Origin: Bacteroidota bacterium
GTDB taxonomy: Bacteria; Bacteroidota; Bacteroidia; 2-12-FULL-35-15
Direction of reading: 5' to 3'
NCBI GenBank assembly: GCA_023251835.1
Contig: JAHEXZ010000044.1
Location: forward strand, 1 to 44,918
DNA: 44,918 bases
The notes under the pieces were generated by a model. The model made no database searches, was not told where the DNA came from, and saw only the letters and a program-made list of their open reading frames with translations. Position 1 is the first letter of the stretch. Every line of letters begins with the position of its first letter. Positions 30,903 through 40,048 of the stretch are shown in pieces. The position numbers and the translations under genes were made by a program.

Positions 30903-33164
30903 ATGAAGCAGCTAATACTTTCAAAAAGATTTTTTCTATTAAAACTTGTCTGTTTCTGTTGGCTAACAACTTTAAAATTAAATGCCCAGGATAATGTTGG
31001 TATCGGTACCAATACGCCCGATGTTAGCGCTATTTTAGAAATGCTTTCTACTAATAAGGGGTTACTAATACCCAGAATGACTGCCACTCAAAGAATATCT
31101 ATCCCTTCCCCGGCAAACTCGCTTCTGGTATATGATACTGATTCTATGTGCTATTTCTTCTGCAGACAACCTGGAACAATTTGGGTTTCATTATGTAATT
31201 CGGGGTCTGGTGGCGGCTCAGGAACTGCAGGGTTTACAGGCGCTACAGGGATTATCGGATTCACCGGAACTACAGGAACTACCGGGGATATAGGTGTTAC
31301 TGGCACTACCGGTGGGCAAGGATTCAGTTGTTGGGACACTAATCAAAACGGAATAAATGACCCCTCAGAAGATGTTGATTTGAATGGACTATGGAATGTG
31401 AACGACTGTAATGCCGGGGTTGCAGTACCAGGACCAGCAGGCTATACCGGATCTACCGGAAATACAGGATATACTGGTGCAACAGGATTTACAGGTGCAA
31501 CAGGTGCAACGGGAGTTGGGGCCACTGGATATACCGGAGCAACAGGTGCAACAGGAAGTCAAGGCTATAGTTGCTGGGACACCAACCAAAATGGAATTAA
31601 TGACCCTTCAGAGGATGTTGATTTGAACGGGCAATGGAATGTGAACGATTGTAATGCAGGAGTTCCTGTTCCAGGATCAATTGGATTCACCGGCACTACT
31701 GGTTATACAGGCACCACAGGCCGTACCGGTTCAACAGGTTTAACAGGAACAACGGGTTCAACCGGTTCAACCGGTTCTACCGGTTCTACTGGTTATACAG
31801 GTGCCACCGGTTATACAGGAAGTACCGGAGCCACAGGCCCAACCGGTGTTGGAACTACGGGATCCACAGGAGCTAATGGTGTTATTGGGCCTACAGGACC
31901 TGCCGGATCCGATGTAGGTACTCATTGGACATTAACAGGCAATTCTATTGCTGCAAGTGATTTCATTGGAACAACCAATAGCCAGGATTTTGTAATCAAA
32001 ACAAATTCAAGTGAAAAAGCCAGAGTAACAAGTGGGGGCTTTATAGGTATTGGAACAGCAATACCCGATGTTCAGCTTACGCAACAGAAGGCACTTAATG
32101 GTTCTTTTACCAATACCATTTCGGATTATTTTTATATGGCGAAAAACAATTCTTCCATAAATGTTTTTGGTATTGCAGCTTCTACTACACAAGCTTATTT
32201 AATGACAAACAATGGATATGGTTTGAATTTAGGAACGAATGGAAATGTAGGTGTAATAATATCTCCGACCAATAATGTAGGTATTGGAACCAATCCCGGT
32301 TATAAATTAGATGTAAATGGAATCATTCATTCGGTTAATGGTATTTGTGCATCTAATGTTAGCAGTGATTTACCTTCTTTTTCAGGAATAGTGGGCATCA
32401 AATCAGACGGAGGTTTAATTGTTCCTAATGGTAAAGTAGGAATTGGAACTGCTACTCCAAACAATTTGCTTGATGTGATTTCAACAAGCGGTATTGATGC
32501 TGTTGCTGGAACTACAAATGGAGGCTCGTCAAGTTATGGCGGCATTTTTACAAGCACAGGTTCAAGCAGCAACGGTGTCAAAGGAGAATGTGATAATGGT
32601 GGCTCTGCTTTTGGAGTTTGGGGGGCTAGTACGAGTGGTTATGCAGGATGGTTTTCCGGAACTACATATGTTAATGGTGATTTTTCAGTGGGAGGAACAA
32701 AATCGTTTAGGATTGATCACCCACTTGATCCTGCTAACAAATACCTCTATCATTCCTGCGTGGAAAGTGATAAACAGTTAAATATCTATTCAGGCAATGT
32801 GGTTACTGATGCATCCGGTGATGCAACAGTTTCTTTGCCTTCCTATTTTGAAACATTAAACATTGATTTCAGATATCAACTCACGGTAATTAATGTATTT
32901 GCCCAGGCAATTATTTCTCAAAAAATTCAATCGAACCAATTTAAAATAAAAACTGACAAACCATTTGTTGAAGTGAGCTGGATGGTAACAGGTGTCAGAA
33001 ATGATGCCTGGAGCAAAGACCATCCTTTTGCTGATGAAGTTGAAAAAAGAGCAGAGGAAAAAGGTACGTATCAATATCCGCAAGGTTTTGGGTTACCTAA
33101 AGAAATGTCAGTAGAATATCAAAAGTTAAAAGTAGGTTCCAGTGATAATCAGACAAAAAAATAA
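30903..33164 (+). CDS. Fibre-like protein 1: collagen-like Gly-X-Thr stalk with KSFRIDHP-type C-terminal domain
   Basis: 753 residues. Signal peptide cut near residue 28 (LNA before QDN). The shared array module covers about 29-99: [39 protein letters not shown] and SLCN with a CX14C pair. Residues about 110-336 are Gly-X-Thr triplets broken twice by a 34-residue Cys-containing insert ([18 protein letters not shown]) that looks like a Ca-binding loop. The middle has more NVGIGT-type units ([32 protein letters not shown]). From residue 600 comes a conserved domain opening [19 protein letters not shown] and containing [13 protein letters not shown], which I have seen on fibre-like proteins. No T9SS sorting domain. 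Likely a trimeric extracytoplasmic fibre. Confidence 0.88.
31230..31912 (+). repeat. Collagen-like Gly-X-Thr coding repeat in fibre gene 1
   Basis: A 9-bp-based repeat (GGN-NNN-ACN) encoding Gly-X-Thr triplets, with two copies of an insert coding [12 protein letters not shown] at about 31324-31415 and 31566-31655. Long stretches match 38290-38945 in fibre gene 5 closely at DNA level, which should favour recombination between the two genes. Confidence 0.85.
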
Positions 33165-33167
33165 TTT

Positions 33168-37848: not shown

Positions 37849-37972
37849 TAGAATATAGTTAATAGTAATGATGGGTTATTGGGTTATCATTGTTATTTAT
37901 AATTAGCTTAACTGATAACTGTCAACGGATAACTAATGAACTATAGTGTAAAAATCTAATAATAGGAAACAC

Positions 37973-40048
37973 ATGCCGGATTTAAGCAAAAAATTCTGTA
38001 CGCAGAGCATAGCATTGTTAACTTTGGTACACTTTTGTATATGCAGTATTTTGCCATCACAGGCACAGGATAATGTTGGTATTGGAACTAATACACCCAA
38101 TGCAAGTGCCATTTTGGAAATGCTCTCTACCAACAAAGGATTATTAATACCCAGGATGACAGCGGTTCAAAGGCTTGCCCTTTCCGGAAGTGCCGCAAAC
38201 TCCCTTTTAGTATATGATACAGATTCTATGTGCTATTTCTTCTGGAGACAACCAAGCAATGCCTGGATTTCTTTATGTAATTCGGGTTCAGGTGGTACTG
38301 GTAGTAATGGTGTAACCGGAAGCACAGGAACCACGGGAGATATTGGTGCAACAGGGTATACTGGCGCAACAGGTGCAACCGGAAGTCAAGGATACAGTTG
38401 CTGGGATACTAACCAAAACGGAATAAATGACACCTCGGAAGATGTGGATAGCAATGGTTTTTGGAATACGAACGACTGTAATGCAGGGGTTGCCGTTCCC
38501 GGGCCAGCAGGTTATACGGGTTCAACAGGTTCAACCGGATATACAGGTGCAACAGGATTTACCGGTGCAACCGGTGCAACAGGAGTTGGAGCTACTGGAT
38601 ATACCGGAGCAACAGGTGCAACAGGAAGTCAGGGATACAGTTGCTGGGACACCAACCAGAATGGTATAAATGACCCTTCAGAAGACGTGGACGGCAATGG
38701 TTTTTGGAATGTAAATGACTGTAATGCAGGTGTTCCTGTGCCTGGGCCAATAGGTACTACCGGTTATACAGGTTCAACAGGAACTATGGGTTCAACAGGT
38801 CGTACAGGATTTACAGGATTTACAGGATTTACAGGTTCAACAGGTCGTACAGGATCTACTGGTTATACAGGCTCTACCGGTTCTACCGGTTCAACAGGGA
38901 GCATAGGATATACGGGTTCAACAGGCTCAACGGGGGCTACAGGACCAGGTACCATTTGTGGTGGAGCCAGTATAAATTATGTAACAAAATTTACAAGTCC
39001 AACGGATATATGTAACTCTATTATTTATGATAATACAACCAATGTAGTTATTGGAAGTACCACACCTTTTGTAACTGATAAATTCTCTACTTATATTGCA
39101 GGATCTGACAATGGGGTAAGCAGCTATGCAGGCGGAAGTGGTGAGGCTATATATGGAAATAATTACGGTACAGGAAGAGCAGGCACATTTTATATTAATA
39201 ATGCTGCCAATACCAGTGCTGCACTCTTCACACAACACGAAAATGCAAATGCTGCTGCTGCATATTCATTAAATAATGCAGCAGCAGGCGCAGGAACAGG
39301 AGATGCTTATCAGGGATTCACAGCACAATCCGGGGCAGCGGCTTTATGGGGACAAAATACTAACAGTTCCGGTACTGGAATAATGGCATCCGGAAATAAT
39401 CAAAGTACCCTCTTTTTAACCAATGGATCAGGAGGTGCTTTTATTGGAGATATTACAGGAATCTATGGAGGTTTTAATACCGGAGGTATTGGAGAAGCCC
39501 TTTATATGGATGATAATTATGGAGCTGTTTGGAATGCAGGATACTGGGATGGCTCATCTTATTACAAAATTGTCGGAAATGGAAGTGTATCAACCGTTGT
39601 TCCTGGAATAGATGATAAGAACGTTCTGTTAATCTGCCCGGAATCACCTGAAGCATTATTTACTGATTATGGAAACGGACAGTTGAAAAATGGTTTTACT
39701 CATATTGAACTGGATCCTGTTTTTGCAAAAAATATTGTTGTAAATGACAAACATAAACTACGTGTTTTCGTTCAACTGGAAGACAATGAAAATTGTAAAG
39801 GAGTAGTAGTAAAAAATAAAACTGCAAAAGGGTTTGATGTGATGGAATTAGATGGCGGCACTTCGAATACTCCTTTTACTTATCAAATAACTGCTAATCG
39901 GGCTGACCAGCAAATGGAAAAAGGAAGAGTAGCGCATTATGCTGATCTTCGTTTCCCTTATGCACCAGTACGTCTGGAAAAAAGTTCCCGCAAAATTCCT
40001 GTGAGGAATACAAGCGGGGAAGGACTTAAAAGCCCTATTCGAAAATAA
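37973..40048 (+). CDS. Fibre-like protein 5: collagen-like stalk with CPExPE-type C-terminal domain
   Basis: 691 residues after a 124-bp gap. Signal peptide cut near SQA before QDN, then the shared module with CX14C. A Gly-X-Thr stalk spans about 105-325 and is broken twice by the [12 protein letters not shown] insert, as in fibre protein 1. Next come the [19 protein letters not shown] segment shared with fibre protein 4, a Gly/Asn/Ala-rich middle, and the C-terminal domain shared with fibre protein 3 ([45 protein letters not shown]). It therefore combines parts of genes 1, 3 and 4. No T9SS sorting domain is present. Likely an extracytoplasmic fibre. Confidence 0.87.
38290..38945 (+). repeat. 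Collagen-like Gly-X-Thr coding repeat in fibre gene 5
   Basis: Gly-X-Thr coding triplets, including runs of GGATTTACA and GGTTCAACA units near 38809-38890. It has two Cys-containing inserts at about 38390-38480 and 38630-38730. It closely resembles 31230-31912. Confidence 0.85.

Follow-up and report, generated by a model that had tools for sequence, protein, structure and literature searches.

What would a cell make of five neighbouring genes whose products begin alike and end differently? This question is raised by a locus at positions 30903-40048 of the window, by which we mean the whole 44,918-nucleotide stretch of contig JAHEXZ010000044.1 that was analysed, from an uncultured Bacteroidota bacterium (its draft genome of 4.1 Mb has 171 contigs, this one being C132). 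We found there, as a first-pass annotation made from the DNA letters had claimed, five neighbouring open reading frames, all on the same (+) strand, with gaps of 3, 83, 20 and 124 bp (g1-g2, g2-g3, g3-g4 and g4-g5, respectively). We propose, with a probability of roughly 0.6, that they encode a set of Sec-exported trimeric adhesins with swappable tips, analogous to the mosaic adhesive trimers (MATs) of Bdellovibrio bacteriovorus. The parts of each gene, with the N-terminal module referred to as the head, are as follows.

30903-33164, + strand: g1, 753 aa; signal peptide, head (30987-31199), collagen-like Gly-X-Thr stalk, KSFRIDHP tip (~32700-33161)
33168-34463, + strand: g2, 431 aa; signal peptide, head (33249-33464), five decapeptides (33489-33638), tail-collar-like HxH tip of type T7 (~33996-34460)
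34547-36208, + strand: g3, 553 aa; signal peptide, head (34631-34843), short collagen-like stalk (34850-34975), beta-rich middle, CPExPE tip (35804-36205)
36229-37848, + strand: g4, 539 aa; signal peptide, head (36301-36513), 13 decapeptides (36526-36915), YVTKFTSPT link, phage-type GTTAQRP module, HxH tip of type T6
37973-40048, + strand: g5, 691 aa; signal peptide, head (38066-38281), collagen-like stalk, YVTKFTSPT link, CPExPE tip (39629-40045)

The common beginning of these proteins is the head, a module of ~72 residues that starts at the predicted mature end and stops at the second of two cysteines. Its pattern is [10 protein letters not shown]...ILE.LS.NKG.L.PRM...NSLL.Y..DSMC.FF.RQP...W.S.CN. 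The shared module with a C-x14-C spacing that had been described behind the signal peptide was recovered in all five genes (E ~1e-30 to 1e-40), with pairwise identities of ~58-69% over signal peptide plus head and of up to 82% between heads. This conserved domain, which opens with VGIGTxxPxxxxL, directly follows the signal peptide in 5/5 genes and in nearly all relatives. A Pfam search with the head sequences gave no credible match, and the module is not described by Pfam; searches of the sequences of solved structures with profiles of the head, the KSFRIDHP tip and the CPExPE tip likewise returned nothing significant.

Two stalk types follow the head, as the annotation had it: a collagen-like stalk in g1, g3 and g5 and a decapeptide repeat in g2 and g4. 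The Pfam Collagen model (PF01391) matched g1 (5e-19, 68.3 bits) and g5 (1.8e-18, 66.5 bits) above its gathering score of 27.2, and g3 at 19.6 bits, under that score. PHROG tail-fibre families also match the collagen stalks, and the GTTAQRP module of g4 is matched by phage families, most of which lack a functional assignment. The decapeptide stalk of g4 contains 13 consecutive D-S-[LIM] sequons within 134 residues; counted as D-[ST]-[AILVMT], the motif occurs 13 times in this stalk and 5-6 times in g2, whereas those proteins of the window that are clearly cytoplasmic have 0-0.4 sites per 100 residues. All 61 consecutive in-register repeats from five proteins, extracted with the D-[ST]-[LIVM] motif itself as anchor, conform to that motif, with D invariant and S/T and L/I/V/M interchanging; one further repeat, in L014, deviates. 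In Bacteroidota, the O-glycosylation motif places Asp before the glycosylated Ser or Thr, and the commonest followers are Leu, Ile and Val (PMC12871550). Judged by sequence, the decapeptide stalk repeats this motif in tandem and is a candidate for glycosylation at every repeat.

The ends of the proteins are more varied than had been thought. Three tip types had been claimed; we found four (KSFRIDHP in g1, HxH T7 in g2, CPExPE in g3 and g5, HxH T6 in g4), since at our grouping threshold of E <= 1e-6 the HxH tips of g2 and g4 form separate groups, each with its own relatives. The g2 tip matches PHROG 1800, a tail collar family, at 3.6e-27; in Pfam, the gathering score of Tail Collar (PF07484) was missed by g2 (21.4 of 24 bits), and g4 gave no match to that model. 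The KSFRIDHP and CPExPE tips have colinear motifs, and we rejected a common origin for them as their hhalign score was not above that of shuffled columns; they are kept apart here. Across stalk types, g4 and g5 share the YVTKFTSPT link that had been claimed for them, at 86% DNA identity over 71 bp.

Evidence that these parts move relative to one another comes from related genomes. As a landmark we used gyrB, which let us read the equivalent position in 20 genomes of the genus.

42610-44598, - strand: gyrB, conserved landmark for locating the same slot in relatives

Thirteen of the 20 gyrB-adjacent loci hold one to four head genes, all on the window's strand relative to gyrB (G031 is additional), and the remaining slots hold giant PKD proteins or unrelated genes. 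The tips in the occupied slots include the KSFRIDHP, CPExPE, S74 and collar types, and others that end in LMILDTP or GGNAxxDVNPGEMTI; tips with either of these endings we call jelly-roll-like (TNF/C1q-like) from a by-eye reading of their sequence, where Pfam gave no match. The slot next to gyrB is a recurrent site for fibre genes in the genus. At one gyrB match (G046:C21:48593-50548) a single in-frame TAA interrupts the gene, possibly through a frameshift or an assembly error. A second array, in the sister genome G027 (contig C49), carries eight head genes, most of them collagen-stalked, with S74, collar and fibrinogen-like tips, and in several of its genes the stalk and the tip are separated by another head-like module. 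The fibrinogen-like match scores 21.7 bits, just below the Pfam cut-off of 22. One product of this array (L130:8335-10251) is a bacterial protein with a ficolin-like arrangement: a head, a collagen stalk, a PKD-like domain and, at the C-terminus, a fibrinogen-like domain.

Comparing G027 with the window genes in 40-residue steps of identity revealed chimeras. The gene at L028:10475-12226 has the body of g3 and the tip of g5, with a crossover at about residues 365-400: up to about residue 360 it is 72-82% identical to g3 in most 40-residue bins (one is lower) and, past the head, 25-45% identical to g5, while from about residue 400 it is 72-85% identical to g5 versus 30-55% to g3. A second gene (L028:14229-16004) is a g4/g2/g4 mosaic, and a third (L028:18010-19815) has a collagen stalk bearing the g4 tip, at 76% identity. 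A tree of head DNA places g3 and g4 apart from g1, g2 and g5 with 97/98 support, which conflicts with the stalk and tip classes (g3 and g5 share a tip), although with a short alignment (219 columns) its single branches should not be over-read. Mapped onto this tree, ten tip labels require 19 changes, between a minimum of 9 and a shuffle mean of 23.8, so a tip is in part passed down together with its head, and swaps are frequent. Together, the G027 chimeras, the varied tip sets in one slot and the conflict between head tree and tips support the duplication and module shuffling that the first-pass annotation had suggested; nor are the relatives scattered, unrelated single copies, as arrays recur at gyrB and elsewhere.

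What the tips might do is suggested by structure models, which were made of single chains of g3 and g4. Local values of the predicted local distance difference test (pLDDT) were ~65-75 in the head, ~60-80 in the CPExPE tip and ~27 in the decapeptide stalk, whose fold in the g4 model is uninterpretable. Residues 429-506 of g3, in the CPExPE tip, superimposed on the receptor-binding domain of the Pam1 tailspike (7eea) with Z 8.6 over 71 residues (root-mean-square deviation, rmsd, 1.7; Foldseek E 5e-3). In the same low-confidence model, the tip gave Z 8.2 against K1 lyases, 8.0 against the K64-1 depolymerase and 4.8 against Helix aspersa agglutinin, and its alignments to pyocin fibres and to H-type lectins of snails were poorer; a Z below 8 may reflect merely a common arrangement. 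By that measure the matches of the head are weak: 5.0 and 5.5 against the collagen XV trimerization domain, one from each low-confidence model, and, from the g4 model, 5.8 against the tailspike TSP3 and 5.1 against the phage tropism determinant Mtd. The top Foldseek PDB row for the g3 model is the Bdellovibrio MAT fibre 8ond, at probability 0.23 and rmsd 31, which we treat as a literature lead only.

From these parts, we propose the following mechanism. The signal peptide would direct Sec export of each fibre protein, after which three chains would associate, probably through the head, which could nucleate the adjoining collagen-like stalk. The stalk, formed as a triple helix of collagen type or as a rod of decapeptides with one O-glycosylation sequon each, would hold the tip off the cell, where tips of a predicted tailspike or H-type-lectin type (g3 and g5) and of the tail-collar type (g2 and g4) may bind glycans or other surface ligands. 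Recombination would move tips between stalks and thereby alter binding specificity, leaving the exported, assembled base unchanged. On this proposal, the array resembles a kit with which the cell could change its binding partners.

Several results weigh against this proposal. A search of g1-g5 for the sorting domain that the type IX secretion system (T9SS) uses at the C-terminus, of either type A or type B, gave no match at E <= 0.1, so no known route to the surface is indicated for the five proteins and we infer their location there. The models of g3 and g4 are of low confidence overall (mean pLDDT 41.8 and 36.2, respectively). When profiles of the head and of collagen XV/XVIII trimerization domains were compared, hhalign scored 15.9 where shuffled columns reached 20.3, and we rejected sequence homology between them as not significant. 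It could be the repeat fold, and not glycosylation, that demands the sequon pattern; given this, and given that the repeats were extracted on the motif itself, we take the glycosylated stalk as an inference from its sequons. We also dropped an argument for T9SS export from co-occurrence, since SprA is near-universal (143 of 149 genomes of the class) and about two thirds of the 81 genomes of one family, none of which yielded a head (0/81), are SprA-positive; absence of the head is therefore not tied to T9SS.

The nearest described system is, by analogy of layout, the MAT superfamily, in which a signal peptide and an invariant N-terminal domain precede a long trimeric stalk and swapped tips (PMC10769870). 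The MAT tips include S74, TNF-like, C-type lectin and beta-sandwich folds; there are 21 members in the genome, one of which was shown to bind surface glycans (PMC10769870). Like MATs, the proteins studied here have a conserved N-terminal domain next to the signal peptide, rod-like stalks, swapped C-terminal tips, many copies per genome and chimeric members; the array's relatives include some with S74 or jelly-roll-like tips. The start of the head, VGIGTxxPxxxxL, resembles the MAT capping-loop motif V-G-G/N-pi-X-X-P-X-X-X-L. However, comparing by description and motif, the head has ~72 residues where the MAT domain is beta-rich and has ~130; the stalks, judged by sequence, are collagen-like or decapeptide where the MAT stalk is a triple beta-helix; and the five genes lie in one array, in another phylum with no known predation.

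Whether the head anchors the fibre or assembles it is the point on which the best of the alternatives turns. The annotation had taken the head for an anchor; on such a reading it would dock to an outer-membrane partner at the cell surface and leave trimerization to other parts. In the array, the head does follow the signal peptide directly in every case, like the invariant MAT domain that its authors placed at the cell surface (PMC10769870). On the other hand, a second head copy lies between stalk and tip in G027:C49, the weak fold matches are to trimerization domains, and the module is widespread and, in this genome, fronts S74 and other architectures. In addition, in the few viral contigs that carry head-like modules (L125-L128), these are internal or C-terminal in their proteins, not beside a signal peptide. 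We therefore regard the anchor as unproven and somewhat doubtful, and favour, as a hypothesis drawn from the models, that the head may nucleate trimers; the two roles are not mutually exclusive.

A further alternative holds that the five proteins are parts of a structural matrix or surface layer, an extracellular mesh in which the tips serve only to assemble or chaperone trimers. S74, an intramolecular chaperone, and jelly-roll-like tips in relatives are consistent with such a role, as are the large PKD surface proteins next door. We judge it unlikely, as the diversity and swapping of tips exceed the apparent need of a matrix and the CPExPE tip resembles receptor-binding and lectin folds. More improbable still is that neutral gene conversion homogenized tandem duplicates, with no selection acting on the exchange of tips. 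Repeat-rich sequence recombines easily, and head similarity within the genome is raised (mean identity 0.781 for pairs from the same genome with different tips, and equally for pairs from different genomes with the same tip, against 0.744 for other pairs), but tips are well conserved across species while their combinations change, and the reading frames are intact in many genomes. Finally, we can largely dismiss a domesticated or degenerate prophage with five leftover tail-fibre genes. In its favour are the PHROG tail-fibre and collar matches, the presence of head-like modules in viral sequences (four contigs and three phage records) and a weak relationship of the CPExPE tip to Enterococcus phage tail proteins. 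Against it, each gene encodes its own signal peptide, the window yielded no genes for phage structure or replication, housekeeping and T9SS genes flank the array, and many genomes hold this arrangement in the same slot. The modules may be phage-derived, yet the genes behave as cellular secreted genes.

Other fibres share single features with the proposed adhesins. Streptococcal Scl1 and Scl2 and Legionella Lcl also carry a globular domain on a collagen-like Gly-X-Y stalk; the NCBIfam Scl and Lcl models match the g1 and g5 stalks far below their curated cut-offs (44 of 325 and 57 of 500 bits), and the proteins here are without LPXTG and have other heads and tips. Phage tail fibres and tailspikes resemble them in the collar-type tip, the head-like modules and a predicted CPExPE fold near tailspike receptor-binding domains, and differ in that the genes here have signal peptides, no phage genes nearby and a conserved chromosomal slot. 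With C1q and ficolin, relatives of the array share a collagen stalk bearing a jelly-roll-like or fibrinogen-like tip, a resemblance of layout only, for which a common origin is unsupported.

The head is found well beyond this array. This genome encodes the module 13 times, with eight of the copies outside the array, where one fronts an S74-like-ended protein (L015) and another a repeat-rich frame of 1536 aa that is interrupted by the contig end (L017). Heads occur in 95 of the 149 genomes of the class and in hundreds of genome-contig stretches, mostly environmental Bacteroidota metagenome-assembled genomes. A still broader reading, which we offer tentatively and hold to be less probable than not by some distance, is that these genes belong to an unnamed mosaic fibre system found throughout Bacteroidota, in which the head would be a stand-alone trimerizing cassette that, set after a signal peptide, starts a collagen rod or a densely O-glycosylated decapeptide rod, and lectin-like tips (tailspike, collar, fibrinogen-like, jelly-roll-like) would be exchanged by recombination in dedicated arrays such as the gyrB slot, as a counterpart of the collagen-stalked recognition proteins of animals. 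If true, many environmental Bacteroidota would hold recombinable binding fibres comparable to Bdellovibrio MATs, outside known predators. We found no papers on such arrays in Bacteroidota with the terms used. The gyrB slot offers a fixed place for following tip exchange between strains, and the decapeptide stalk a compact test case for a rod coated with O-glycans at every repeat.

Further observations concern parts of these proteins. Inserts with two cysteines and the calcium-binding-like motif DxNxNGxxDxxED, a feature absent from the annotation, break the collagen-like run twice in each of g1 and g5.

31329-31418, + strand: paired-Cys DxNxNGxxDxxED insert of g1
31572-31661, + strand: paired-Cys DxNxNGxxDxxED insert of g1
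38399-38488, + strand: paired-Cys DxNxNGxxDxxED insert of g5
38642-38731, + strand: paired-Cys DxNxNGxxDxxED insert of g5

A similar insert is present in G032 (L044). Another protein with one of the 13 head copies of this genome (L014:8130-9956, G000:C116) joins a head, a decapeptide stalk and then a long collagen stalk in a single chain and ends at a contig edge. The chromosome of a gammaproteobacterium, Glaciecola amylolytica (L067), encodes two head-and-collagen proteins, probably gained horizontally. A scan of the array for promoters and terminators gave counts not above those of shuffled sequences.

Domain searches agreed with the PKD/T9SS proteins that had been claimed to flank the array. 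Upstream lie two large DUF7948/PKD proteins, both with CHU_C T9SS signals, of which one is listed here with the downstream neighbour.

26450-30796, + strand: large CHU_C/T9SS surface protein with DUF7948, PKD repeats and CHU_C
40073-42022, + strand: PKD protein with a CHU_C (T9SS type B sorting) domain (CHU_C 5.4e-19); adjoins fibre genes in G002 and G027 too

We considered the protein at 40073-42022 as an obligate partner of the fibres and rejected this, as its full-length homologues in most genomes of the genus lie away from head genes. In several relatives, small secreted Lys/Asn/Pro-rich proteins of ~100 aa adjoin the fibre genes; they fall into two sequence groups, each conserved between species.

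L031:1371-1670, gyrB-right orientation: small Lys/Asn/Pro-rich protein
L037:16920-17231, gyrB-right orientation: small Lys/Asn/Pro-rich protein
L039:17125-17427, gyrB-right orientation: small Lys/Asn/Pro-rich protein
L030:19567-19863, gyrB-right orientation: small Lys/Asn/Pro-rich protein
L040:12662-12976, gyrB-right orientation: small Lys/Asn/Pro-rich protein

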